In this document: positions 13,707-49,435 of the stretch, piece after piece
How the letters are laid out: every line of letters begins with the position of its first letter
How positions within the stretch are numbered: position 1 is the first letter of the stretch
Source of the DNA: Pelovirga terrestris
GTDB taxonomy: Bacteria > Desulfobacterota > Desulfuromonadia > Desulfuromonadales > Geopsychrobacteraceae
Reading direction: 5' to 3'
Assembly: GCF_014773365.1 (NCBI RefSeq)
Contig: NZ_JACWUN010000002.1
Location: 124,001-188,000, forward strand
Length of the DNA stretch: 64,000 nucleotides
The notes under the pieces: generated by a model
Seen by the model: the letters and a program-made list of their open reading frames with translations, nothing else
The model's database searches: none
What the model was told of the DNA's origin: nothing
Translations under genes and position numbers: made by a program

Positions 13707-14981
13707 TTATTCAACATCATAACCACAGGCAACATCGACCCGCCGGTTAAAGGCTCGTCCCTCTTCGGTGTTGTTGTCGGCAACCGGTTTTGATTCTCCC
13801 ATGCCCTGGGTTGTCATCTTTGTCGCCGGAACATTGAAGCGTTCGACCAGGGCATTCTTTACCGCGGTGGCCCGCCGCTCGGAGAGGGTCTGGTTGTAGG
13901 CTTCAGGACCGGCACTGTCGGTATGACCGATGATAGCAACCTCGTGGCCGGGGTAATTGCTAATACAGGCTGCCGCTTTGGCTAATTCACTATCAAACTC
14001 GGTTGAAACGTTTGCACTGTCAAACCCAAAATTGATGCGCAAAGAGAGGACGGTCGGACATCCTTCAGTATCAACCCGGACGCCGGGCGGGGTGCCAGGG
14101 CACTTGTCAAGATAGTCCGCAACACCGTCACCATCGCTGTCAAGCGGGCATCCCTTAGCATCAACGGCAACGCCACGGGGGGTATTGGGGCATTGGTCAA
14201 GATGGTCAGGTACGCCATCACCATCACTGTCACGCACAACCGGAGCCGGTGCCGGAGCGGGGGCCGGTTGTGCTGCGGGTTCGGTCAGGAAGACAGCGGA
14301 GACAAACTGTGACATGGCATGCGCGTCTGCCAGCTTGGCGGCGCTGGTCGCGAAGCCACACTGCCCGGCCTGGGCAACCTTCTCAAGGACTTTATGACCC
14401 ATGGAATTGCGCTCATTGCCAACGGCTATCGTGTAAATACAGAGGTCGTCGCCCAGCTGATCTTTCGCTTGTTTGGCGGCCGCAGGCGCGTTGTCCATGT
14501 CGAGGCCGTCACTGATGATAATCAGTGCCGATTGACCACCAGCAGCTTTAACATCCTGCGCTGCCGAGCCAAGAGCTGCGCCAAGGGGGCTGGTGCCGCC
14601 AATGTATTTGATTTGTCCGAGGCTGTCATGGAAGGCTTGACGCTCATGACGGGTCATACCATAGACCAAATCAGTAGGATGTTGGGACTGATAGCTGTTA
14701 TGACCAAAGGTGCGCAAGCCGGAATTGTAGGACAGATCGGCAGGAATCCCCTGGTTAATTCGACTGGCGATGTCTCTGGCTGTGATAAAATATTTGCCGC
14801 CCTCTTCCATGCTCAACGATGAGTCGAGAATGATCTGGAAGTTATCGATCTTGGCAACCTTGCCGCCACTGTTAACCGCTGGTGCTGTCAGTGGTTGTAA
14901 AGGGGGTTGCGGTACCGGCGCGCAGGCACCGACAAGGGCGATGAGTGCACACCCGGTAAAAAATTTCATCCATCCCGTCAT
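13707..14981 (-). CDS. Outer-membrane OmpA-family lipoprotein with von Willebrand A domain
   Basis: A 424-aa envelope protein. The signal peptide ends GCALIALVGACAP, with a lipobox-like VGAC. A von Willebrand A domain follows, with a MIDAS metal site DSSLS in NFQIILDSSLSMEEGG and later IIISDGLDM. Next come two thrombospondin type 3 calcium-binding repeats (DSDGDGVPDHLDQCPN, DSDGDGVADYLDKCPG). The C-terminal 110 residues are an OmpA peptidoglycan-binding domain (VAIIGHTDSAGPEAYNQTLS, GMGESKPVADN). It probably links the outer membrane to the cell wall and binds a protein ligand. The ATG at 14981 has AGAGGAA upstream; the frame extends 12 more codons but without a site. Confidence 0.85.
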   Translation of the reverse strand: MTGWMKFFTGCALIALVGACAPVPQPPLQPLTAPAVNSGGKVAKIDNFQIILDSSLSMEEGGKYFITARDIASRINQGIPADLSYNSGLRTFGHNSYQSQHPTDLVYGMTRHERQAFHDSLGQIKYIGGTSPLGAALGSAAQDVKAAGGQSALIIISDGLDMDNAPAAAKQAKDQLGDDLCIYTIAVGNERNSMGHKVLEKVAQAGQCGFATSAAKLADAHAMSQFVSAVFLTEPAAQPAPAPAPAPVVRDSDGDGVPDHLDQCPNTPRGVAVDAKGCPLDSDGDGVADYLDKCPGTPPGVRVDTEGCPTVLSLRINFGFDSANVSTEFDSELAKAAACISNYPGHEVAIIGHTDSAGPEAYNQTLSERRATAVKNALVERFNVPATKMTTQGMGESKPVADNNTEEGRAFNRRVDVACGYDVE

Positions 14982-15255
14982 GATTCGTTCCTCTTGAATA
15001 AAATTGCGGAATTGCATGAATTATTTAATATCATGTTGTTTGGTAGATGCAAGGGGGGCGGACGGGTAATAACCGTCGTTCAGCCTGGGGTAGTGGTCAG
15101 GTCCTTAGCCGATATCTGTAAAGATTCAAGGCATTAGCGGGGCGGTTGAGCGCTGGACAGAAGACACATTATTTCTCATTAAGAACGAAGTGTCAGCGTC
15201 AGCCGACCAGGTGCTTTGGCCGCATGAGGTTCTTTGCCGCGGCTAACCGTCCTTG

Positions 15256-16569
15256 TTAGGCTGGACTTTTGTTAAGCCGATCAAGGATGCTCTCCAGTTG
15301 GGTCAGGCGCTCATCAATACGCTGAATCTGTTCTATTGTGTTGATGGCACAAATCTCACTGGGGCAGGTGTCACAACCTTCACAAAAATGACGTGGAGGT
15401 AGCTGGGTCAAGAGCTCGATGAAAAAAGTTGAAGACTCATCAAGGTCAGCAAAGTGAGGGTCCTTTTTGATCGCAGTGGCACGATCCTGTTCATGACTGA
15501 TCAGGCTGTGGCCGAGTTGAAACAGGCGCTGCAGCCAGGTCGTGTGGAAAATCTCGCTAGCCTGGTCAAGATCGGTGCCGGCGAGATACTGCAGGGCCAG
15601 ATTGAGGTTGTCGTAGGTTTGCTGCAGGGCGTCACGGACTTCTGTGCTTGACGACAGATCAATGCGGTCAGCACTGAATTTGCGGTTGACCAGGTGGAGC
15701 ATCTCACAGGCCAGTTCATGGGGGATCCCTTCTTCCATCACTGCTGCGAGAAAATGGTGCGGGGTGGCAGTCTTGAGCAATGCCAGTGGGTTGGGCAGGC
15801 TGTCAGCTTCGAGACGAAAATCCTGTTTATCGCCAACAACGAAGGTTTGTGGATTGGTTCTGCTATAGATCACCCTGGCGTCCATGGTCGGGATAATCCC
15901 CAGATCGAGCAAGCGGGCACTGCGCCCTTGATAAACCTCTTCCTCCAGCACCAACAGGCTTTCGCTGCGGATAATTTCCATGATCTGCAGATAATGGTTT
16001 TGCTCACGTTCCTGCCAGATGTTGAACAGCGAACCCAGGATCTTGGCGGCGTCTTCTGACTTGTATTCAATGTCGTAAATGGCTTCAAGGCGCTTGGCAT
16101 TTTCTGCATCGTCATCATCATAGGCTTCAAGACCACGGATAATGGTCACATGCTTGCCGATCATCAGGGCGAGGATTTCCGGCTCTGTTTCGCGCGCTAA
16201 CCGGCATATTGTTTCTTCATCGCAGTTGGATAAAAACTCCAGCCAGTTTAACGCTGATTCCGGGTTCAGGGTGTCCAGATCCCAGCAATCAAGATCGAGA
16301 ATCAGAGTGATTTGCGCCGGGGAGGCCAGAGAAATCAACTCCAGAGAGTCTTCCGCGCCAAGATCATTGACGGTCAGGTAGAGTTCCTGGGGATGCAGCC
16401 TGGGAACAACAATCTCCGGTTTGCTGCTGTTAAAGATCAGGCGATATTTATCTTTGCCCTGTGCCTGATGAATCTGCAGCAATTGCTCTTTGAGGGGCAT
16501 TTGATGGAAGGATATCGGCACCGCTACAGACTGTTGCGATCTGTTTGTGATCTGGTTTTTTTCGTTCAT
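15256..16569 (-). CDS. DUF6178-like protein of unknown function
   Basis: A 437-aa soluble, acidic, largely helical protein. The repeated use of Leu/Glu segments such as NWLEFLSNCDEETICRLARE and the ending in a coiled-coil-like IEQIQRIDERLTQLESILDRL suit the DUF6178 family, which I recall from deltaproteobacteria; I cannot confirm this without a search. Near the C-terminus is a compact cysteine cluster CEGCDTCPSEIC (C-x2-C-x2-C-x4-C), which could bind a metal or iron-sulfur cluster. There is no signal peptide. It is transcribed divergently from the sensor kinase gene, 242 bases away. No function can be assigned. Confidence 0.6.
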   Translation of the reverse strand: MNEKNQITNRSQQSVAVPISFHQMPLKEQLLQIHQAQGKDKYRLIFNSSKPEIVVPRLHPQELYLTVNDLGAEDSLELISLASPAQITLILDLDCWDLDTLNPESALNWLEFLSNCDEETICRLARETEPEILALMIGKHVTIIRGLEAYDDDDAENAKRLEAIYDIEYKSEDAAKILGSLFNIWQEREQNHYLQIMEIIRSESLLVLEEEVYQGRSARLLDLGIIPTMDARVIYSRTNPQTFVVGDKQDFRLEADSLPNPLALLKTATPHHFLAAVMEEGIPHELACEMLHLVNRKFSADRIDLSSSTEVRDALQQTYDNLNLALQYLAGTDLDQASEIFHTTWLQRLFQLGHSLISHEQDRATAIKKDPHFADLDESSTFFIELLTQLPPRHFCEGCDTCPSEICAINTIEQIQRIDERLTQLESILDRLNKSPA

Positions 16570-16811: not shown

Positions 16812-18806
16812 ATGGTGAGAACCCAGCCAGAACAATCCATTAAAAACAAGCTGGTCATTTTGTTGATGCTGATCAGTGTGCTGTTGTTGCTGGTTTTCAG
16901 CCTGGTTGTGCTGACGGCTGAAATCTTTGCCACCCGGGCCGCGTTGATTCAGGAAATCAGGGTCCTTGCAGCGGCAATAGGAAGCAGTAGCCGTCAGGCT
17001 CTGGTCCTCGGTCAATACCAGGAAACAGAAAAGTTTCTTGCTGCGTTAACGACCCAGAAACATATCCATGCTGCCTATCTGTTTAATCACCAGGGTGAGC
17101 CGGTAGCAGAATATCTGTCTCATAACAAGGCTGCTTTTACCTGGAGATTTCTTGAGAAGGACTTCAACGCTTCCAATAAAGCTCATTGGACCACTGCAAC
17201 CGAAGAACAAATTCATTCCAGTCTTTCACATCTGGGTGTTTTTATTCCGATCTTCTATACTGAAAATCGTATTGGCACCATTTATGTGCTCAGTGATCTT
17301 GCTACCCTTTACGGGCGCTTGAGTGGTGTCGCGCTAGGCACGACCCTGTCGCTGATGCTGTTGTTCATTTTTTCCTGGTTTCTTGCAGGCCGTCTGCATA
17401 AGCCTGTTTCTGAGCCCTTGCTGAACCTTGCCGGGGTCATGGAAAAAATTTCGGTGCAACAGGATTATTCGGTACGGGCGACAAAAATGAGCAATGACGA
17501 AATTGCCCTGCTGGTTGATGGACTGAATCACATGCTTGATCAGGTTGAAGATTATCAACGGCAGCAATCTCGCTATCAGGACCATCTCGAGTTGACCGTT
17601 CATCAACGAACGGCCGAGCTGCGGACAGCGGTGGCGGAGCTGAATAAGGCGCGTCAGTTGGCGGATTCAGCAAATGAGGCCAAGTCGCAGTTTTTGTCGC
17701 GCATGACCCATGAACTGCGAACCCCGCTCATTGGTGTCCTCGGGATGAACGGCCTGTTGCAGCGCACCGCGTTGACAGAATACCAGCGCACCCTGGTTGA
17801 TACCGTTGATAGCTCTGGTAACGACCTGCTGGCTCTGATCAGCGATGTTCTTGATATTGCCAGGATTGAAGCCGGGGTGATAGAGCTTGAGCACCACGAA
17901 ATCGTTCCGGCGGACATGGTTGCGGAGGTTGTCGCGCTGCTCAAACCCCAAGCACAGGCCAAGGGGGTCGAGCTTATCGCCGATATCCCCACCAGCGCCT
18001 TGCGCCGGATTCGTGGAGATCGGGCGCGAATCCGACAGATCATGATGAATCTGATTGGTAACGCGATCAAATTTACGCCCAAAGGAACCATTACTGTAGG
18101 CTTGCAACTGGTGTCGGAACAGCAGGAGCTGGGGCAATTTATCTTTATCGTAAAGGATACCGGGATTGGGATGGATGAGGCGACCAGTCGGCGGATATTT
18201 GAGCTATTCTATCAAGATAAAAGTCTGCCCTCCGAGGGTGCTCTGGGCAGTGGCCTCGGTTTGCCGATTGTTAAACAGCTGGTTGATCTGATGGGGGGCA
18301 ACATCACTGTCGCAAGTCGTCCCGGAGAAGGTAGCTGCTTTACCGTGGAGCTGAGTTTGCCTTTGCTTGAGCAGATACCATCGACGAAACCGGTGACCAA
18401 GGCGGATGTCATTAGCCCCTCCAGCGCCCCTCGCGTGCTCTATGTGGGTCGGCATGCTGCCGAGCGGCAGTTGCTGCGATTGACGCTGGCTGTCTGGCAG
18501 GCTGTCCCTGTTTTTGTCGACAATCTCCAACAGGCGGTGGCCATGTGTCAGCGCGCTCATGTTGTTCTGCTGATCCTTGATGCGGCCGAGCTCACACCCG
18601 GGAATCTTAAAGAGCTGCAGGCATTAAAAAACGAATTGCCACCCTGTTGTCTGCTTGGTGACTATGAATCTGCTGATCTGATCACGGACCCTCTGCTTGG
18701 ATACCTTGAAAAACCGCTCAATCAAACCGCCTTGCGCCGGATTATCGATCCTTTACTGGTGACATCAGCCACTGCGTCTTCCGTTGCTGCCGGGAAGGCT
18801 GGCTGA
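16812..18806 (+). CDS. Membrane hybrid sensor histidine kinase with degenerate receiver
   Basis: A 664-aa sensor kinase. Order: membrane segment (residues 11-34, LVILLMLISVLLLLVFSLVV), a periplasmic CHASE8-like sensor (35-170), second membrane segment (VALGTTLSLMLLFIFSWFLA), HAMP linker, coiled coil, HisKA with His300 (SRMTHELRTPL), and a HATPase domain with N-box MMNLIGNAIKFTP and G-boxes DTGIGMD and GSGLGLPI. The C-terminal 125 residues resemble a receiver with Asp590 in LLILDAAEL and a late Lys-Pro (GYLEKPLN), but the N-terminal acidic pair is missing (LYVGRHAAERQL), so phosphotransfer there is doubtful. The stop overlaps the start of the propeller gene. No response regulator is adjacent. 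Confidence 0.88.
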   Translation: MVRTQPEQSIKNKLVILLMLISVLLLLVFSLVVLTAEIFATRAALIQEIRVLAAAIGSSSRQALVLGQYQETEKFLAALTTQKHIHAAYLFNHQGEPVAEYLSHNKAAFTWRFLEKDFNASNKAHWTTATEEQIHSSLSHLGVFIPIFYTENRIGTIYVLSDLATLYGRLSGVALGTTLSLMLLFIFSWFLAGRLHKPVSEPLLNLAGVMEKISVQQDYSVRATKMSNDEIALLVDGLNHMLDQVEDYQRQQSRYQDHLELTVHQRTAELRTAVAELNKARQLADSANEAKSQFLSRMTHELRTPLIGVLGMNGLLQRTALTEYQRTLVDTVDSSGNDLLALISDVLDIARIEAGVIELEHHEIVPADMVAEVVALLKPQAQAKGVELIADIPTSALRRIRGDRARIRQIMMNLIGNAIKFTPKGTITVGLQLVSEQQELGQFIFIVKDTGIGMDEATSRRIFELFYQDKSLPSEGALGSGLGLPIVKQLVDLMGGNITVASRPGEGSCFTVELSLPLLEQIPSTKPVTKADVISPSSAPRVLYVGRHAAERQLLRLTLAVWQAVPVFVDNLQQAVAMCQRAHVVLLILDAAELTPGNLKELQALKNELPPCCLLGDYESADLITDPLLGYLEKPLNQTALRRIIDPLLVTSATASSVAAGKAG

Positions 18807-20965
18807 TGAACCGCTCTTTACCAATGATTGCCTTGTTCTCCGGTATTGCGCTGGGGGTGCTTCTGTTGATCTGGTCGGGCGGGCTATTCCTAAGCTACCT
18901 CGGTTCCAGCGAAAGCCTGGTGGTCAACCCGCCCCCGGTTCAGCGATTGGCGGTTGGCAGCACCACGACCTTGCAGCTAACCGGTAATGGCTTTGATGGT
19001 GATACTCAGGTCAGTCTGATCATGGATGTCAGCAATCAGGACACAGTAGTTAACCGCTATCCGCTGGATGGATTTTTCAATACCAGTCTGATCATGGGTG
19101 AGACCCTGATCCTTGGCAGTAATGACGGTCTGAATCTTGTCAGTATTGCGGACCCTGACTCGCCCCGGCTGCTTAAGACCTACCTGCCCGGACGTTCGGT
19201 TGTTGATCTGCACTACAGCGATGGTAAGCTGTTTGTCTCCTGTGGGCGACTGGGATTGGTTATTATGACCCTGGAGCAGGGGCGTCTTACCATCGAGGCT
19301 GAAATCTGGACCGGCGATACCACGACCACAAGTTATTTTCATGCGGGTCATTTGTATGTGAATAGTCACTTCGGTGGTCTTAAGATGTACCGGTTGAACG
19401 AGTTACTGTCGCCACGGCAGGTTGGACAACTGGATTTTGACAGCATCATCAGAGGGATGGCGTTTTATGGTGAGCGGCTTTTTCTCTTTGATCGTAGCGG
19501 GGTACTTTTCCTTTACGATTGCAGCAATCCAGCGGCTTTGAAACTGATAGATCAGGTGCGCTTCGAATCAGGTGTGCGTGCTGTACTGATAAATAAGCAG
19601 CGGCTCTATGTTGCTCTGCCCGACAGTTTCAGGGTCTTTGCGTTGGACCAGACGGATCAGCTCAATCGGCTGGACCAGCTGACATTGGTTCAGAGCTGGG
19701 ATGGTTTCGGCTCGATTATGAGTCTGATCGAAGGACAGCATCATCTCTACCTGATTGACCGTAGTGTCGGTTTGCGGATTTTTGATCTTCGTGATCAAAC
19801 ATTGTCTGAGCAGATGGCCTTCGCGGAAGGGCTGCAAACCCTGGCCGAAAAGGGTGATTATTTATACGTAACCGGTTCGCTGGAAGGACTGTTGACCATT
19901 GATCGTCGGCATTTACGTTCGCGCCAGGTCATCTCCTGGATCAGCTCCTTGCCCGGCGTAAGCGATGGCATCGTGGTTGATGACCTGTTTTATCTCAGTT
20001 TCAAGCACACGGGGGTTGGCGGTGTTGCCTTTGTAGATAAACAGCAAGGGCGCGCCGTTCACTTTGACCATGCTTCATATCCTAGCTACGCTCTGGCTCG
20101 ATATGAAGATGTACTTTTTGTTAACCAGGACAATGGCAGTATCAAGGTGTTCGATATCCGTGTTCGCACCAGCCCCCAATTCCTCGCGGAATGGCCTGAT
20201 TATACAGCAAATCGCTTACTGGTCATCAATGATTATCTGATCAGCTTTTCACTGCGAACCGGCCTGCGGGTGACCACTGTCGCCGATATCGATGCCGCTT
20301 CGGTAGTCGACCAGATGGCGGCGCCACAGATTCTTGGCATGGTCGCCGTGAATGATTATTTGATCTGTGTCACCTATGACCAGGGGCTATTGACGTATCG
20401 CGTTCATGCTAACGGCAAGTTGGAACAGGTCGCCCAGCTGCGGCCTCCCTTTCCGGCGCAACAATTTGCTCAACAGGTCGATGTTGATGTCCATGAAGGC
20501 CTGGCCTATATCGCTAATGGTCGCTCCGGGTTGTTGATTGTCGATGTCAAGGATCCAACCCGGCCACAACTGGTCAGTACCATTGCCGTGCCGGGCTATA
20601 GCAAAGGAGTGCGGTTTCATGAGAACCTGGTCTATCTTGTCACCTTGCGCAACGGAGTTCATATTGTTGATGTAACGGTGCCCGGCCGGCCACTGGTGGT
20701 CGGTACCGTGCCGTTGAGTCGATTATCAAAGTTTTTGCTTGTCGATGCTGGACTGCTGTATTTTTTTCAACATGCAAGCGGTATATCGGCCATTCCTCTT
20801 CCTCATTTTGCCGACCGGATGACATTGCAATCGCGCAACCGACTGAGTTTCGTCTTGTCGGCACCGAAGCATCCGGGGCGCTACAATCTGGTGGTCAGTA
20901 ATCGCCACGGCATGGTTAATCATAATGCGGTTTTTGAGATTTATGAAGAAACGGGTCTTGAATGA
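18806..20965 (+). CDS. Large membrane-anchored LVIVD-repeat beta-propeller protein
   Basis: A 719-aa protein with an N-terminal membrane anchor (LPMIALFSGIALGVLLLIWS), then an IPT/Ig-like strand block (VGSTTTLQLTGNGFDGDTQV), about 600 residues of LVIVD-type beta-propeller repeats (LLIVDVKDPTRPQLVSTIAV, VHIVDVTVPGRPLVVGTVPL and weaker earlier units such as LNLVSIADPDSPRLLKTYLP), and a C-terminal Ig-like end (HPGRYNLVVSNRHGMVNHNA). It should sit in the periplasm or envelope and bind a ligand or protein; LVIVD proteins have no established enzyme activity. Its ATG overlaps the kinase TGA by one base, so the two are translationally coupled, which suggests it senses or presents a signal for the kinase. 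Confidence 0.8.
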   Translation: MNRSLPMIALFSGIALGVLLLIWSGGLFLSYLGSSESLVVNPPPVQRLAVGSTTTLQLTGNGFDGDTQVSLIMDVSNQDTVVNRYPLDGFFNTSLIMGETLILGSNDGLNLVSIADPDSPRLLKTYLPGRSVVDLHYSDGKLFVSCGRLGLVIMTLEQGRLTIEAEIWTGDTTTTSYFHAGHLYVNSHFGGLKMYRLNELLSPRQVGQLDFDSIIRGMAFYGERLFLFDRSGVLFLYDCSNPAALKLIDQVRFESGVRAVLINKQRLYVALPDSFRVFALDQTDQLNRLDQLTLVQSWDGFGSIMSLIEGQHHLYLIDRSVGLRIFDLRDQTLSEQMAFAEGLQTLAEKGDYLYVTGSLEGLLTIDRRHLRSRQVISWISSLPGVSDGIVVDDLFYLSFKHTGVGGVAFVDKQQGRAVHFDHASYPSYALARYEDVLFVNQDNGSIKVFDIRVRTSPQFLAEWPDYTANRLLVINDYLISFSLRTGLRVTTVADIDAASVVDQMAAPQILGMVAVNDYLICVTYDQGLLTYRVHANGKLEQVAQLRPPFPAQQFAQQVDVDVHEGLAYIANGRSGLLIVDVKDPTRPQLVSTIAVPGYSKGVRFHENLVYLVTLRNGVHIVDVTVPGRPLVVGTVPLSRLSKFLLVDAGLLYFFQHASGISAIPLPHFADRMTLQSRNRLSFVLSAPKHPGRYNLVVSNRHGMVNHNAVFEIYEETGLE

Positions 20966-21013
20966 ATTGCTCCCGGATGTCGGGATGAAAACAGGTCAGG
21001 TTGTTAAGGGATC

Positions 21014-21856
21014 ATGCGTATACTCGGATTTATCCTATCAGCGGCTGTGCTGCATGTAGTTGTGCTGGTTTTAACCCCGGATAGCAGCAATCAGCGGTTT
21101 GACGACATCCTGGTCGGGGTTGAATTGGTCCAGCGACAGATGGATTCTTCTGCCACAGCTGATACCTTTAGCGAAGGGCAGGAGTCAACAGCCACTGACA
21201 GATCCGAGCCGTCCTTGCCTGACCGGATTGACAACGTCGTTGCGGTTGAGGTGGCCACTTCACCAGAGCCTGTTAACGAACTGATTGAACCGAAACGGGC
21301 GGTTGCCATGAATCGTCCTGCGCCGCAACCCATTCCGGGACCATATCAGCAGCCACTGCCTGACGATACGACGGTTGCTGCAACGCCGGATAACAACTCA
21401 GCACCTGTTCTCGCCCAAGTTACCCAGCAAGCAGTCGATCGCCATGCAGAGGCTGAGGCCGTACCGGTATTACAACGCTCTCTTTCTGAGCAACCGGCTG
21501 TCAGACCGGCAAAGGCCAAAAAGGCAGAGAGCATTGACGGCATCAGGGCGCCATTGATCGAGCAGGTGGCCGCCGCGCCGCGCTATGGTTATCATCCTGC
21601 CCCTGCCTACCCACGCCTGGCGCGACATCGTGGGTGGGAAGGAACTGTGGAATTTAAGGTCCGTGTACTTCCTGATGGTCAGGTTGGTGAGGTGACGCTC
21701 ATAAGTTCCAGTGGTTATAAGAATCTTGATCAGGCCGCCCACAGAGCCATTAACCGCTGGCGCTTTACCCCGGCCAGTCGAGCCGGAAAGGTGGTTGAGA
21801 GCTGGGTTGTGGTCCCGGTCCATTTTGTTCTGGATGGGCAGCCGCGCACACCCTAG
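21014..21856 (+). CDS. tonB: TonB-family energy transducer
   Basis: A 280-aa TonB-type protein: an N-terminal membrane segment (RILGFILSAAVLHVVVLVL), a low-complexity Pro/Glu/Ala linker through the periplasm (residues 30-190), and a C-terminal TonB domain (YHPAPAYPRLARHRGWEGTV, VTLISSSGYKNLDQAAHRAI, NRWRFTPASRAG). TonB carries proton-motive force to outer-membrane receptors. ExbB/ExbD are not adjacent. AAGGG precedes the ATG. It follows the propeller gene by 48 bases and is probably cotranscribed with the kinase. A second TonB lies at 48.4 kb and the only TonB-dependent receptor in the window at 44 kb. Confidence 0.88.
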   Translation: MRILGFILSAAVLHVVVLVLTPDSSNQRFDDILVGVELVQRQMDSSATADTFSEGQESTATDRSEPSLPDRIDNVVAVEVATSPEPVNELIEPKRAVAMNRPAPQPIPGPYQQPLPDDTTVAATPDNNSAPVLAQVTQQAVDRHAEAEAVPVLQRSLSEQPAVRPAKAKKAESIDGIRAPLIEQVAAAPRYGYHPAPAYPRLARHRGWEGTVEFKVRVLPDGQVGEVTLISSSGYKNLDQAAHRAINRWRFTPASRAGKVVESWVVVPVHFVLDGQPRTP

Positions 21857-21959
21857 CCAGGTTGCTCTTTTGGTGCCAGCAAGGGTATTGTTTCAATTTC
21901 TGCCCCTGGTGTTTTGACCGTTCCTGCTGGTGGCTTTTTGCTAGAACATGAGGAGTTTT

Positions 21960-22634
21960 ATGAATGAAGGTCATCAGCAACGTGATATGTTGCAGCGGAT
22001 CAGTAAGTGTGCAGAGGCATTGCGTCAACACGCCGACAGGTTGCCTGGCCCGGAGCCGGAATCTACCGCCACATTGATGGAATATTTACAGCAGTTGGCG
22101 CTTTATGCTGACGCCGTGAATTTAAGCAGTGTGCAGAAAATAGCCGACCAGGTGTGCTACTCATTAGCCAGGCCTGGTGGATTGCCGTCACGATTGCAGC
22201 AACTGGAAAGTCGAAACTACAGTCTTGCCGCAGAGTGGCTGGAACAACTGGCCCGCCTTTATCGCGGAGGCTTACCGGAACCAAGGGAGCTGATTGCCGA
22301 TCTGCTCTACAGTTTTTCTCTGCTGGAACAAGCCGTCGGTGCTCAGCGCGTTGAACAGGGTGGACCCTCAGACCTCTTTGATGAGGATCCGGTAGCGACA
22401 TCAGAGGCATGGAACTCCTATGTTCAGGATAATGATCCCTTTGTCGATGATCCGGGCTTTGGCCACTTGTTTGATCTGTTGCAGCGAACCTTGAGTCACG
22501 CCACAGAATTGCGGGCGGACTTCCCTGCGGATCCTTTTTTTCAGGATCCCCAGGCTACCGGTACCGGTTCTGTCGACATGTTAGCTGCAGACCCCGGTCG
22601 GGGTGACGATGGAGATCAGAACAATCAGGATTAA
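21960..22634 (+). CDS. Unrecognised soluble protein downstream of tonB
   Basis: A 224-aa protein with no signal peptide or membrane segment. The first 140 residues look helical (MLQRISKCAEALRQHADRLP, LEQLARLYRGGLPEPRELIA). The tail is acidic and rich in Asp/Pro (DPFVDDPGFGHLF, FPADPFFQDPQ) and probably disordered. I do not recognise a family. An ATG four codons earlier exists, but AGGAG four bases before the ATG at 21960 supports the inner start. It lies 103 bases after tonB and before the tRNA cluster, possibly the last gene of the kinase-propeller-tonB unit. Confidence 0.6.
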   Translation: MNEGHQQRDMLQRISKCAEALRQHADRLPGPEPESTATLMEYLQQLALYADAVNLSSVQKIADQVCYSLARPGGLPSRLQQLESRNYSLAAEWLEQLARLYRGGLPEPRELIADLLYSFSLLEQAVGAQRVEQGGPSDLFDEDPVATSEAWNSYVQDNDPFVDDPGFGHLFDLLQRTLSHATELRADFPADPFFQDPQATGTGSVDMLAADPGRGDDGDQNNQD

Positions 22635-39896: not shown

Positions 39897-40727
39897 CTAC
39901 CCTTGTGTTGCCGGATCTTCTCCGAGTATCAGCCTTAACACTGCGTTGGCCTGATGATGAGCGGCAATTCCGACACGTGGTGCCATCAGGCCGCAACCAG
40001 GTCCGGCGGAGGTCAGATTGTCGCCACAGAGATAGAAGCGGTTGTTGATTTTTCTGGTACGAATCGAGTTGCCGGGTTCATAGCCTGCCATGCCCGATGC
40101 CGCAACCAGATATTTTTCCGGGACATCGCGCAAAAACGTATTAGCAAGCATGGCCTTCTGATCGGCTCGGTCAAAGGCCTCAACAAGAATATCCATGTCA
40201 GCAAAAAGTTCATTGACGTTTTCTGCAGTAATTTTGCCATAATAACTATCCACGGTGACCAGTGGATTAATGCGTTGCAGATTATCGCGTAGGGCATGCA
40301 CCTTGGGCAAACCAATCTGATCAACAAAATACTGCTGACGATTGAGGTTGGATGGTTCAACCACATCAAAATCAGCGATTCTGATAAAGCCGACACCGGT
40401 TCGAGCCAGGGCGATGGCAATAGCTGAACCAAGACCACCGGCACCGGCAATGCCGACCCGCGCCTTTTTGACTTTGGCGTGGACTCCAGGGGTGTGGCGC
40501 GCCATCATTAAGGCTTCTAGTTCCTGAGGTGATGGTGCAACGCCACGGCGGATCATGACAATATGGTCCTGATCGGCGATAAGATGATCATCGGGGCAAG
40601 GGTAGCCATTGACAATCAACAGATCGGCATTTGGACACTGTTGTTGTTGCAGATCGCGTAAAGGCATCTTCGCAGCGACGGTCAGGCTGCGTTCGTTGAG
40701 GTAAATCTGTATTTGTTTTCTGTTCAT
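39897..40727 (-). CDS. thiF: ThiS adenylyltransferase ThiF with N-terminal ThiS-like domain
   Basis: A 276-aa E1-like enzyme activating ThiS. The N-terminal ~65 residues (MNRKQIQIYLNERSLTVAAK, ADLLIVNGYPCPDDHLIADQ) resemble a degenerate ThiS fold without a C-terminal GG. The rest is an E1 domain with GIAGAGGLGSAIAIALARTG and FDVVEPSNLNRQQYF. This arrangement matches the ThiF family-2 type of anaerobes. The ATG at 40727 lies directly after the T-run of the riboswitch terminator; only GGTGG in the terminator stem can serve as ribosome binding site. A GTG four codons upstream is an alternative. Confidence 0.88.
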   Translation of the reverse strand: MNRKQIQIYLNERSLTVAAKMPLRDLQQQQCPNADLLIVNGYPCPDDHLIADQDHIVMIRRGVAPSPQELEALMMARHTPGVHAKVKKARVGIAGAGGLGSAIAIALARTGVGFIRIADFDVVEPSNLNRQQYFVDQIGLPKVHALRDNLQRINPLVTVDSYYGKITAENVNELFADMDILVEAFDRADQKAMLANTFLRDVPEKYLVAASGMAGYEPGNSIRTRKINNRFYLCGDNLTSAGPGCGLMAPRVGIAAHHQANAVLRLILGEDPATQG

Positions 40728-40753
40728 AAAAAAAGCCACCAGGCAAGGCGGCT
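40728..40753 (-). terminator. Riboswitch-controlled terminator before thiF
   Basis: On the reverse strand AGCCGCC (40753-40747) pairs with GGTGGCT (40740-40734) across a six-base loop, followed by a T-run ending at 40728, one base before the thiF ATG. The upstream GCGGC in the riboswitch tail can pair with GCCGC of this stem, giving an antiterminator. The GGTGG needed for translation is also buried in the stem. Confidence 0.8.
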
Positions 40754-40778
40754 GACGAAGAGTATTCGTTTTTACGCC

Positions 40779-40866
40779 GCTTCCCTACGCCGGTATCAGC
40801 CGGATCAGGTTCCAAGGGTCGTTCCGTTTGTCCGGAACTCTCAGTAACAATGACTCCCCTAGCGTT
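40779..40866 (-). promoter_or_regulatory. TPP (thiamine pyrophosphate) riboswitch
   Basis: The reverse strand shows the THI-box landmarks in order: AGGGGAGT near 40860, ACTGAGAG, then CCCTTGGAACCTGATCCGG, TGATACCGGCGTAGGGAAG ending near 40779. These form the pyrimidine-sensing and pyrophosphate-sensing arms that bind TPP. It lies in the 307-base gap upstream of thiF and should shut off thiFSGHE when thiamine pyrophosphate is plentiful. The rest of the gap, up to 41034, shows only presumptive promoters. Confidence 0.93.
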
Positions 40867-41034
40867 ATCAATGCTTTGAACGTTACCAGACCGGTTTTCT
40901 TCAAGTCAACAGCTAAGGCTGAATATTCGCGCGGGATCAGCGCTTTAAATCCGTGGTTTTTTGCTCAAGCTTCACGTATGATACGCCGTTTTTGAGAATT
41001 TGCTGAACCAGAGAATTGAATTAAAGGGACAGGT

Positions 41035-43969: not shown

Positions 43970-46396
43970 ATGAAAATCTGCCTGCTGATGATTGTGCTGT
44001 TTTATTCGCCCCTGCTGTGGGCTGAGGATTCTCTGCTCGCCCTTGGGGACGGGCAGGGACAAGCCGCCCCAAATCTGCACACAATGACTCCGGTCATTGT
44101 CCACGCCACCTCGATTGAATCGGGTGAAACCATCATCGAAGGTGCGGCCCTGGAGTTGATGCCGTCCGCCACCGGTTCTGTCACTGAAGCCCTGAAGGGC
44201 ATGTCGCAAATCCAGTACGACTACGAGCGTCAGTCCAGTCTTACCGTTGGTGAAATCGCCCCGCCGCGGATCTCTATCTCCGGTGCCAGACCATACGAAA
44301 ATAACTTCATGATCGATGGCATGAGTGTGACTAATACCTTGAATCCGTCGGGGTTGGATAATTCAAGGAACACTACTGATTTGCCCGTAGGGGGCAGTGA
44401 TGTCGTGCTGTTCTACGATTCCTCATTGCTCGAGTCGATTCAGGTCTATACTAGCAATATCCCTGCAGTTTATGGGGGATTTGTTGGCGGCGTTGTTGAT
44501 GCTAAATTGCGTGAGCCGCGCTCCGATTACTGGCGTTTTAGTCTCAGCGGCGGATATACCTACGATGGTTGGTTTGATTTGCGTGATGAAGACAAGGAAT
44601 CAGTCACCCCGAACAATCAGCCCCGGTTTCGCATCTATCGGACAGGCACCAGTGCTGAAGGGCCTGTTGGTAACAAAGCTGCCGTTTTGTTGTCGTATGT
44701 TCGCCATCATTCCACGATTCCGTTGACGCGCGTCAAGGTTGACGGAACAACCTACAAAGATAACCAAACCCGTACCAATGAAAACTATTTCGCTCGCTTG
44801 AATCTGCAACCCCACAATGAGCTGAATCTCAATCTTGATCTTACCTACGCCCCCTACGAAGCATTGCGCTGGGATCCGATCTTCCGTGGCAGTGAATGGT
44901 ACATCAACAACCGTTCCTGGCGTTTTGCCACCCAGGCAGATTATTTTTTAACCAGTGGCGTGTTAACGACCAAGGCCGCTGTTGCTCGGCATGGCTTCAG
45001 TCGTGATAGCAAGACTAGCTTCCGCTATGCCGGCTTGGAGGACAAATACGGCGGGTTGGGTGATACCAAGAATAGAACCCGTGATGCCCGCGCCTCTGTC
45101 AGCTTTGTTTCGACGGATGTTGATATCAATGTCGGTCACATCAGTTATACAACCGGTATCGAATATGGTTACAAGCATATCGATATGTGGAATGAGGGGT
45201 TGGTGATCCATAATTTAACAGCGACCAGAAGAACCATACAAACCTATGAAGAAATCTCCCAAGCGCGGCATAATTCAAACATCGGCGGCTATGGGCAACT
45301 GGAAGTTGTCTGGCACAGGCTCTTGTTGCGTCCGGGGGTACGTATCGACTACGACCGTTTTTCCGGTAACACCGATATTGCGCCCCGTTTTAAGTCTGAA
45401 GTTGATGTATTCGCTAATGGCAGTTTGCGTCTTGGTGCTGGCGCAAACCGCTACTATGGCCAGCATTTAAGCGCTTATGCATTTCGCCGACATCGACCGA
45501 TTCATACGCAGATATATGATATTCAGGAAGATGGCAGCGAAGTTCCACGTGATCCGACGATCAGTGCCGTCAGAAACTTCAGTAGCGATGGGCTGTCAAC
45601 CCCTTACTCCGATGAAATTTCTGGAGATCTGTCAGGATCGATTGTTGGTACTGATTATGTGGTTTCTGCTGTCCGCCGCAAACACCAAAAGCAGCTTATC
45701 AGTAAGTCCAGTGATGGGATAGACTATGTTTTAACTAACGATGGCAAAAGTGAGTACCTGGGCATCACTGGCACCTTGTCCCGTGTCTTTGCAACGGATT
45801 ATCTTGGTACCCATCGGGTTTCGTTAAGTGCGACAAAATCGAAGACCTATTCCGTGACAGGCTTTTTTGATTCCAACGTAAGGGAAAATCTTGTTATTCA
45901 GGGGTACGACCTTACTTACGATACGGTATTTTATCGGGAGGGACTTATTTCGCGCTCGGATCTTCCGGCTGAAAATTACAATGCTCCATGGATTCTTGCT
46001 GTTACCCTCAATAGCAGCTTTTACCAGGATCGTTTGCGTTTGATGTCGGTGGTGCGTTGGCGTGATTCGAGTAGGGGACTGGTAGCTGATCGCCGGATCA
46101 GCGATGAAACCCCCTATGGGACAACGTCCGGTAGCAACACGGTAGCAAGCAATTTCTGGATCAATCCCGAGGGTGGTTATTCCCAAGCGTACACATACGA
46201 CAAGATATCGGGCGGCGCTACAACTGATCTGACTATCGAATTTGACCTTTACCGGTACAATGAGCGCACGGTTACCATGATTGGCGAAGTCCTTAATCTT
46301 TTTAATGGGCGGGCAGAAACCGGGCAGTCGGTGGATGACACCAGAATTGTTAATCACGGGCGCGGCTTTTATCTGGGCTTTAATATGGTCTTTTGA
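43970..46396 (+). CDS. TonB-dependent outer-membrane receptor
   Basis: An 808-aa receptor. Signal peptide MKICLLMIVLFYSPLLWA; a TonB-box-like TPVIVHATS near residue 40; a plug domain with ISISGARPYENNFMIDGMSV, NPSGLDNS, SIQVYTSNIPAVYGGFVGGV; then a large beta-barrel rich in aromatic strands, ending with the phenylalanine typical of outer-membrane proteins (YLGFNMVF). The ligand is unknown; no siderophore or corrinoid genes are adjacent and no clear Fur or B12 site precedes it. It may use either of the two TonB proteins in the window. Confidence 0.9.
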   Translation: MKICLLMIVLFYSPLLWAEDSLLALGDGQGQAAPNLHTMTPVIVHATSIESGETIIEGAALELMPSATGSVTEALKGMSQIQYDYERQSSLTVGEIAPPRISISGARPYENNFMIDGMSVTNTLNPSGLDNSRNTTDLPVGGSDVVLFYDSSLLESIQVYTSNIPAVYGGFVGGVVDAKLREPRSDYWRFSLSGGYTYDGWFDLRDEDKESVTPNNQPRFRIYRTGTSAEGPVGNKAAVLLSYVRHHSTIPLTRVKVDGTTYKDNQTRTNENYFARLNLQPHNELNLNLDLTYAPYEALRWDPIFRGSEWYINNRSWRFATQADYFLTSGVLTTKAAVARHGFSRDSKTSFRYAGLEDKYGGLGDTKNRTRDARASVSFVSTDVDINVGHISYTTGIEYGYKHIDMWNEGLVIHNLTATRRTIQTYEEISQARHNSNIGGYGQLEVVWHRLLLRPGVRIDYDRFSGNTDIAPRFKSEVDVFANGSLRLGAGANRYYGQHLSAYAFRRHRPIHTQIYDIQEDGSEVPRDPTISAVRNFSSDGLSTPYSDEISGDLSGSIVGTDYVVSAVRRKHQKQLISKSSDGIDYVLTNDGKSEYLGITGTLSRVFATDYLGTHRVSLSATKSKTYSVTGFFDSNVRENLVIQGYDLTYDTVFYREGLISRSDLPAENYNAPWILAVTLNSSFYQDRLRLMSVVRWRDSSRGLVADRRISDETPYGTTSGSNTVASNFWINPEGGYSQAYTYDKISGGATTDLTIEFDLYRYNERTVTMIGEVLNLFNGRAETGQSVDDTRIVNHGRGFYLGFNMVF

Positions 46397-48424: not shown

Positions 48425-49435
48425 TTACCGCCCATAAATATAGCGCCCGGATAAGCGATACTCAAAATAAGCTCTGATCCGGAGCTGATCGTGGGGATAA
48501 TGTCTGCCGAGCGGCCCAAACGGGGCCGCCCGGTAGACGGCTTGAATCGCCTCGAAGTCCAGCAAATCAGAGCCGCTGGTGCGGCGTAAATCGACATCGA
48601 TTAATTCTCCCTCCTTGTTGACGATAATCAGTAATTCCAAGGTACCGTCAATCCCGTTCATCGCTGCCTCAGCAGGATAATTCCAGACCCGCTCAACCCG
48701 ATCGTGGAAGCGCCTGAAAAAAGAGACCAAACGGTCGTGCTGCAGATTCAGCCAAATCTCCTCACCAGGCTCAACATCATCCCGTTGCCGATTTCTGTCC
48801 CGCGGATCCTGCTGCCCTGCGGCAATTTCAGCGAGCCTGCTGGGCGAAGGAAATAACTGGTCACGGGTTAACCGGGGTGGTTCCTGTTGTTCCAGTGGCG
48901 CCGGATCTTCCGTAAGCCGTTGCGCTTCCTGTGGACCTTCCTCGGTTCGGGGTTGTGGTTGCTCCGGATCTGCCGGGGTGGTTGGTGGTGGAGTCGGTGC
49001 CGCTGCCGGGGCAGCCGCTGCCGGTGGCTCTGGAACGGATGGCGGTAGCGGCGCAGGTTTTGGTGGTTGTGCCGGGGTCGGCATGATGCCTTGACGCTGG
49101 TCGCGCACATCGTCACCTGGTGGGGCCTGTTCCCGTTCTACCCGTTGATCACGTTCGGCCCGGCGGGGTGATTCTACCTCCTGCTCCGGTTCAGGGGGGC
49201 GGGGCGGTTGGTCGATTTCGTAGCTGGGTTGTGGTTCCGGTTCAGGTTCCGGCTCTGGTGGTGGCATATCGACCAGCTGGATAACCGTCGGCTGCGACGT
49301 CGTTGCCACTGGCTCTGCGGTCTGTAACAACAAAATTGCTACGACATGTAGCAGCAAGGACAGGAGCAGGCACGCCAGGAACAGGTGGGTACGGCTAACG
49401 ATCCTGGTTGATTTTTGTGATGAAAGATTGTCCAT
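48425..49435 (-). CDS. Second TonB-family energy transducer
   Basis: A 336-aa TonB/TolA-like protein: N-terminal membrane helix (THLFLACLLLSLLLHVVAIL), a very Pro/Glu-rich linker (residues 50-200, PPPEPEPEPEPQPSYEIDQP), and a C-terminal TonB domain (WNYPAEAAMNGIDGTLELLI, VDLRRTSGSDLLDFEAIQAV, RIRAYFEYRLSG). It differs from the 21-kb TonB in linker and sequence, so the two are probably specialised. No ExbBD is adjacent. Confidence 0.85.
   Translation of the reverse strand: MDNLSSQKSTRIVSRTHLFLACLLLSLLLHVVAILLLQTAEPVATTSQPTVIQLVDMPPPEPEPEPEPQPSYEIDQPPRPPEPEQEVESPRRAERDQRVEREQAPPGDDVRDQRQGIMPTPAQPPKPAPLPPSVPEPPAAAAPAAAPTPPPTTPADPEQPQPRTEEGPQEAQRLTEDPAPLEQQEPPRLTRDQLFPSPSRLAEIAAGQQDPRDRNRQRDDVEPGEEIWLNLQHDRLVSFFRRFHDRVERVWNYPAEAAMNGIDGTLELLIIVNKEGELIDVDLRRTSGSDLLDFEAIQAVYRAAPFGPLGRHYPHDQLRIRAYFEYRLSGRYIYGR

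Follow-up and report, generated by a model that had tools for sequence, protein, structure and literature searches.

A conserved sensor kinase–LVIVD propeller pair linked with a FusA-type receptor suggests a trans-envelope signalling module in Pelovirga terrestris and its relatives

What might be sensed by a histidine kinase whose gene runs directly into that of a propeller protein, and which of the neighbouring genes belong to the same device? We address this question for a locus of Pelovirga terrestris (assembly GCF_014773365.1, contig NZ_JACWUN010000002.1; the whole 64,000 nt stretch analysed is called the window), at window positions 16812-22634. An initial annotation had read this locus as an envelope signalling unit made of a hybrid kinase, an LVIVD propeller, TonB and an unknown protein. 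As a whole, that interpretation is partly supported. All four open reading frames (ORFs) were found where it had placed them, on one strand, and the kinase stop and the propeller start do overlap, with one base in common (TGATG). The four genes are:

16812-18806, + strand: sensor histidine kinase with CHASE8, HAMP, HisKA and HATPase domains, 664 aa (Pfam)
18806-20965, + strand: LVIVD double-propeller protein, 719 aa (Pfam LVIVD; AlphaFold model)
21014-21856, + strand: TonB, 280 aa (Pfam TonB_C), 48 bp after the propeller gene
21948-22634, + strand: degenerate Hpt-like protein, 228 aa, or 224 aa from the second Met at 21960 (hhalign and structure model)

We favour, with a probability of about 0.55, a three-part trans-envelope module in which a TonB-dependent receptor (TBDR) of FusA/YddB type is joined by a double-propeller adaptor that would dock on the CHASE8 domain and by the kinase, which would report the cargo or state of the receptor.

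Of 98 relatives, 79 gave a propeller match at E up to 1e-3, and the weaker of these matches may be other LVIVD proteins. Forty propeller regions, one per genome (L031-L070), were examined. In 38 of them the gene immediately upstream of the propeller encodes a histidine kinase of this kind, the exceptions being L064, which has none, and L067, where a contig edge intervenes. In all 38 loci having both, kinase and propeller are separate genes, and their frames overlap in 27. With script-called start codons, this overlap measures exactly 1 or 4 bases in 18 loci. For comparison, 18 other LVIVD loci (L111-L122, L126, L127, L129-L132) contained no match to these kinases or receptors at 1e-6; title or kinship places 17 of them outside the order, no order is given for L114, and the flanks are not of equal length. 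The pairing of kinase and propeller is beyond chance, real and old. Conservation of the neighbourhood in relatives, on which the initial annotation had staked its reading, was checked and found, and the reading of a paired unit survives.

The pair has a third regular companion. A TBDR gene is adjacent to the propeller and convergent on it in 35 of the 40 loci (L048 being partly masked), and tonB lies within the examined region in 28. Two loci of family f5 (L124, L125) carry a TPR-like lipoprotein, the TBDR, the kinase and the propeller all in one direction. Among 60 genomes, 45 contain both TBDR and propeller, none TBDR alone, six propeller alone and nine neither (Fisher p 3.4e-7, kinship uncorrected); in each of the six, the propeller match is partial or near a contig end. 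The two genes are on one contig, within 10 kb, in 38 of the 45. Because the conserved neighbour is a TonB-dependent receptor, TonB is counted in the wider set, as the initial annotation had proposed. In the window this receptor is a displaced third partner, 23 kb off:

43970-46396, + strand: TonB-dependent receptor of the FusA/YddB family, 808 aa (homology)

No other Plug-domain protein was found in the window's genome. The receptor gene follows DivIVA and a small conserved gene; two further genomes of the genus show the same neighbours, and in a third further one a 176-aa ORF of DivIVA length occupies the place of DivIVA beside the receptor. Two TonB_C proteins were found in the window's genome, one being the tonB product of the locus; a second TonB_C-domain protein is encoded near the displaced receptor (48425-49435, - strand). 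Beside the TBDR of L052 (11073-14240, - strand) we also observed a lipoprotein-like protein of ~1055 aa, present likewise in L053, L056, L058, L064 and L123-L125. Its acidic C-terminus reads as TSP3-like, and it may be a surface partner of the receptor. Three such proteins were scanned, giving weak TPR and CarboxypepD_reg matches in L064 and nothing above threshold in L052 and L053.

A profile of 21 receptors searched against the PDB (E up to 0.01) matched FusA (4zgv, 5.2e-188), 6ofr (3.2e-129), which we take to be E. coli YddB, and PirA (1.8e-4), and no other entry. The window receptor alone reaches 1.5e-59 to 4zgv and 7e-37 to 6ofr. Full-length homology to FusA, far above that to other TBDRs, places these receptors in the FusA/YddB family. 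FusA imports plant ferredoxin for iron (PMC5095587, accessible part), and its homologues have variable neighbours, often an M16 protease (PMC6793856, accessible part). The present loci resemble Fus ferredoxin uptake (FusA, the TonB-like FusB, FusC and FusD) and YddB/PqqL in having a full-length FusA/YddB homologue, often with tonB near, but differ in that no FusC-type M16 protease is linked as a rule, kinase and propeller being found instead. An M16 protease was considered as a FusC partner and rejected for this lack of linkage: M16 genes occur in all 31 genomes searched, within ~12 kb of the propeller in only two (G054, G004), and the matches in the window's genome are on contigs other than C22.

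How could a kinase learn of a receptor in the outer membrane? A suggestion comes from a second set of cassettes in the same order. YfiR-like proteins (DUF4154) are present in 23 of 96 genomes of the order; the window's genome has no PF13689 (DUF4154) match, the partner gene there being LVIVD. We examined 20 DUF4154 regions (L200-L219), containing 21 of the 28 DUF4154 places listed. All 20 show the gene order TBDR, YfiR-like protein, transducer (e.g., L201:5001-9681), with the flanking TBDR confirmed by Pfam in every region and the transducer on the opposite side. Pfam identified CHASE8 in each of the 10 transducers scanned, a set of six kinases and four GGDEF-EAL proteins. Because DUF4154 regularly lies between a TBDR and a CHASE8 transducer, the order contains two versions of one plan, and some genomes have both. 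Mutual exclusion of YfiR and propeller was rejected, DUF4154 being found in 6 of 19 genomes without a propeller match and in 17 of 77 with one.

The two versions differ at the site where YfiR binds. Genetic evidence on YfiN points to the AAVVF stretch as the place where YfiR binds, and the YfiR-insensitive alleles include F70L (PMC3375315, accessible part). The corresponding codons of the window kinase are:

16995-17009, + strand: QALVL (aa 62-66), five codons that align with the AAVVF motif for YfiR docking in YfiN-type CHASE8, Leu66 standing at the Phe position

With Leu in place of the docking Phe, the window kinase lacks an AAVVF-type motif. Across the alignment, the docking Phe together with an Asp two places on is found in 20 of 20 YfiR-paired transducers versus 4 of 32 propeller-paired kinases (Fisher p 8e-11, a value that overstates independence because the aligned rows are related by descent). 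L215 was excluded from this count for a wrong 5' extension; its motif too shows Phe and Asp. Because YfiR sister cassettes occur in the same order and the docking residues are mostly lost in propeller-paired kinases, we read the 14-bladed propeller as a replacement for YfiR.

In the window kinase itself, CHASE8 (3.7e-10) is followed by HAMP (7.1e-8) and an output domain, as in the YfiNR family, and NCBIfam NF053592 (HK_near_YfiR_like, a 'YfiR-like protein-associated' sensor module) covers residues 9-246, aligning 1-222 of its 223 model positions. The score of 139 bits is below the cut-off of 194, as are those of the kinases of L065 (172.5), L054 (179.3) and L052 (166.4); the remaining three of six other kinases scanned gave no match listed at E up to 1e-45. 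The phosphoacceptor His is retained in 32 of 32 kinases, window included. The term 'hybrid' used in the initial annotation fits only as history: the protein is a kinase, with no Pfam receiver match at E up to 0.1, and its residual C-terminal receiver has lost the acidic pair and the Thr. An internal pseudo-receiver present in the kinases of two congeners (801 and 805 aa) is missing from it. Of the 32 kinases, 15 have an intact C-terminal receiver pocket, 9 (window included) a degenerate one and 8 one that is missing or not assignable. A sigma-54 response regulator is encoded directly upstream of the kinase in L059.

YfiNR/YfiBNR and the YfiR-associated CHASE8 kinases (NF053592) share with our locus a CHASE8-HAMP transducer beside a separate periplasmic partner, and the YfiR version in this order, like the propeller version, travels with a TBDR (20 of 20 regions). 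In contrast to YfiNR, the partner here is a 719-aa membrane-anchored double LVIVD propeller instead of a YfiR-like protein of ~190 aa, the docking Phe and Asp are mostly lost, and the TBDR is FusA-type and usually convergent. Most likely, the module works like YfiNR but is not a YfiNR member by the tests made. The initial annotation knew of no named system with this composition; this should be modified, the locus being a variant of a plan that is recognisable, TBDR with periplasmic adaptor and CHASE8 transducer, and that has a studied relative in YfiR/YfiN.

On this basis, the following sequence of events can be proposed. A TonB-powered TBDR of FusA/YddB type would carry a ligand through the outer membrane; this ligand is probably a protein that bears iron, or a fragment of such a protein. 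In the periplasm, the double propeller, anchored in the membrane, would act as a separate adaptor, docking on the kinase CHASE8 domain where YfiR docks in the sister systems. Once docked, it may change kinase activity, whatever the sign, according to the cargo or state of the receptor, and the kinase would pass phosphate to a response regulator encoded elsewhere. The breadth of the gene association, the modelled double-propeller fold, the family of the receptor and its swapping, the YfiR sister cassettes and the changed docking site are computational results; binding between propeller and kinase, sensing of cargo, the connection with iron, the direction of regulation and the output are inferred.

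Besides the receptor family, the main hint of a link to iron comes from neighbouring genes in family f4:

L051:11367-14001, - strand: feoB and DtxR/FeoA genes immediately preceding the kinase gene
L057:123-2912: feoB and DtxR/FeoA genes immediately preceding the kinase gene
L070:10894-13696: feoB and DtxR/FeoA genes immediately preceding the kinase gene (by similarity to L051)

DtxR/FeoA alone is upstream of the kinase in L061, of the same family. As to regulatory sites, a promoter consensus scan of the study region gave promoter-like sites no more often than its shuffles. Four loci of genus g6 (L039, L041, L042, L043) have in common a GGTAAMYTAYC motif in the divergent promoter region between TBDR and tonB; it was not found upstream of the kinase in these four.

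Several observations weigh against the three-part module. First, all 4 genomes of the window's genus have the TBDR away from the locus, where it is missing in L061 too, and in L050 (genome G020), whose receptor is of the window-genus type, it lies across tRNAs; linkage of the TBDR is therefore not obligatory. Second, the TBDRs of the sister cassettes were identified by Pfam as TBDRs in general and may not be FusA-like, and the phylogeny of the TBDR departs from that of the kinase-propeller pair. Third, the docking-position Phe is still present in 6 of 32 propeller-paired kinases, and a quick kinase tree has no clean split into propeller-paired and YfiR-paired clades, a single propeller-paired clade not being rejected (p 0.54). 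Fourth, 17 of 32 kinases have a C-terminal receiver that is degenerate or missing or could not be assigned, and no response regulator is linked to the kinase in the window. Finally, no Fur-type box stood out at kinase, TBDR or tonB promoters (≤2 of 100 shuffles did equally well in only 1 of 23 TBDR/tonB regions and in 0 of 7 upstream regions of the window and relatives), and no riboswitch was found near the receptor or the kinase locus in five sources.

The alternative that survives best is that the kinase-propeller pair alone senses envelope state or a periplasmic small ligand, TBDR and tonB being mere long-standing neighbours and receptor activity not being read. Pairwise distances over 32 loci, window included, bear on it directly: the Pearson correlation is 0.84 for kinase and propeller, 0.46 for propeller and receptor and 0.41 for kinase and receptor. 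Nine of the 40 loci (L033, L048, L049, L056, L061, L063, L064, L067, L068) were dropped from this comparison because a gene was cut, masked, split or uncalled, because the TBDR or the kinase was missing, or because a close relative was already included. Genera g4 and g5 are clades for both kinase and propeller, and g6 is a clade for the kinase, not the propeller. The same genera are rejected as receptor clades (g5 p 7e-49, g4 p 9e-6, g6 p 3e-8) in approximately unbiased (AU) tests on 27 rows, made after the distance results were known. Mantel tests in 14 loci show tonB tracking the propeller (p 0.0025) and the kinase (p 0.01) but not the receptor (p 0.31), and give a p of 0.07 for TBDR and propeller. 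Because distances and clade tests differ between receptor and pair, we conclude that the receptor has been exchanged in place while the pair was inherited; and because the TBDR phylogeny does not follow the pair, specificity between adaptor and receptor is unsupported. Three observations speak for a pair acting alone: independent exchange of the TBDR, its low correlation with the propeller, and its departure from the locus in the window's genus, where the pair stayed. However, mere neighbours would sit less well with a propeller match in 45 of 45 TBDR genomes, close by in 38, with the two loci having all genes in one direction, or with sister YfiR cassettes that likewise carry a TBDR in 20 of 20 regions. 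We consider sensing by the pair alone unlikely, if worth keeping in view.

The AlphaFold model of the propeller protein, on 10 sequences (pLDDT 86.2, pTM 0.77), has a transmembrane helix at 4-32, immunoglobulin-like (Ig-like) strands at 46-61, propellers at ~77-369 and 374-665, and Ig-like strands again at 671-713; the protein is predicted to be inner-membrane-anchored and periplasmic. The 58 strands counted within 68-668 of the model fit, with its layout, 14 blades. VIA-align fits single propellers within ~77-369, or over ranges such as 68-665 with only ~280 residues aligned, and we read residues 374-665 of the model as a second seven-bladed propeller, apparently closed by the strand preceding the first.

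A second alternative takes its cue from this fold: the propeller protein would be a split analogue of the Bacteroides hybrid two-component system (HTCS) sensor, binding an oligosaccharide or other organic ligand directly in its double propeller and signalling through the kinase as HTCS do beside SusC/SusD. Two seven-bladed propellers with Ig-like strands, as modelled here, are described for HTCS (PMC3243724, accessible part), and, in so far as the strands before and after the propellers may make up an Ig-like part, HTCS such as BT4663 likewise tie a 14-bladed double propeller with a periplasmic Ig-like part to a histidine kinase and a TBDR. Foldseek places the BT4663 periplasmic domain (4a2l) third, with E 1.9e-18, among double WD40 proteins, and PorZ (5m11) at rank 8; a profile search matched the HTCS entries 3ott, 4a2l and 3v9f at E 2e-4 to 8e-3. 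The best 50 VIA-align rows are mostly WD40 propellers with no HTCS, which is not evidence of difference from HTCS. In several families, the sizeable lipoprotein of TPR-like type encoded next to the TBDR may also recall SusD. Yet the strong 4a2l match is shared with WD40 tandems, whose scores are as good, so that the fold is not specific to HTCS. Neither Reg_prop nor Y_Y_Y was matched by Pfam at E up to 0.1 in two propellers scanned. Moreover, propeller and kinase are separate polypeptides here with CHASE8 interposed, the TBDR is FusA-like and not SusC-like, and the Pfam-scanned neighbours show one alpha-amylase-family protein (upstream, L052) and no other glycan enzyme. An HTCS analogue appears improbable.

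Variation in the propeller gene was also observed. Two tandem propeller genes follow the kinase in L062, L063 and L068 (family f12), and longer propellers of ~1030-1050 aa occur in L053, L055, L056, L058 and L060 (families f10, f14, f19, f20).

Least probable of all is that the propeller is the receptor's cargo-handling protein, a periplasmic binding or unfolding partner that the kinase regulates without contact: some FusA homologues do have periplasmic processing partners (PMC6793856, accessible part), a place that M16 proteases near the propeller could take in only 2 of 31 genomes here, but the overlapping frames, the co-divergence of kinase and propeller and the changed CHASE8 docking site speak against it.

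Among described systems, the three-part module may also be compared with PeuRS-PeuA-TonB2 of Vibrio parahaemolyticus, where two-component genes, a TBDR and a TonB set share one cluster; the receptor there is for ferric enterobactin, in contrast, and the accessible part of the report (PMC4141801) mentions no propeller.

The fourth gene, which the initial annotation had counted as an unknown part of the device, has a different origin. No Pfam family matched it, but it aligns with an Hpt-CheW profile (hhalign 99.6%, E 1.3e-24), and the structure modelled for it (pLDDT 73.3) comes closest to CheA P1 (TMt 0.74, E 0.02), with no match at E below 0.001. The phosphoacceptor motif is absent from the alignment. 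Downstream of tonB, other genera of the family encode a REC-DUF4388 protein and then the Hpt-CheW protein; in L045 a CheA-type protein begins after the latter, with an Hpt and a kinase dimerisation domain. The fourth gene is a degenerate relative of this Hpt-CheW protein from the chemosensory cluster that follows tonB in relatives, and as such a decayed neighbour that is probably not a working part of the device. Downstream of it lie tRNA-Arg, tRNA-His and tRNA-Leu, then trigger factor, ClpP, ClpX and Lon.

Two further features of the window were observed. Upstream of the kinase are divergent DUF6178 and OmpA/VWA genes (13707-16569, - strand), which recur beside the kinase in most family-f1 loci examined. 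A thiamine pyrophosphate (TPP) riboswitch (40765-40870, - strand; Rfam, 74 bits) lies upstream of the gene at 39897-40739.

Among open-licence papers, we found none that describes, by title or abstract, a kinase-propeller-receptor locus, which is not a claim of absence from print, and none on LVIVD whose title concerns a kinase or receptor locus. The words kinase, propeller and lipoprotein are absent from the text of the FusA-homologue paper (PMC6793856), and the accessible main text of the Pelobacter carbinolicus genome paper is without propeller or FeoB.

More tentatively, and as a possibility short of an even chance, these loci may reflect a general plan of receptor, exchangeable periplasmic adaptor and CHASE8 transducer, in which YfiR gave way to a 14-bladed propeller as adaptor, and in which the receptor at one fixed locus was exchanged from genus to genus without loss of the adaptor-kinase pair. 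If true, this plan would be a kinase-based counterpart of FecA-FecR signalling that reads protein import. Periplasmic adaptors between outer-membrane receptors and CHASE8 transducers would then be interchangeable parts, a family of LVIVD double propellers would gain a function, and there would be a kinase route for sensing FusA-type protein import. The change at the docking site and the presence of YfiR-paired sister systems in the same order make the adaptor idea directly testable.

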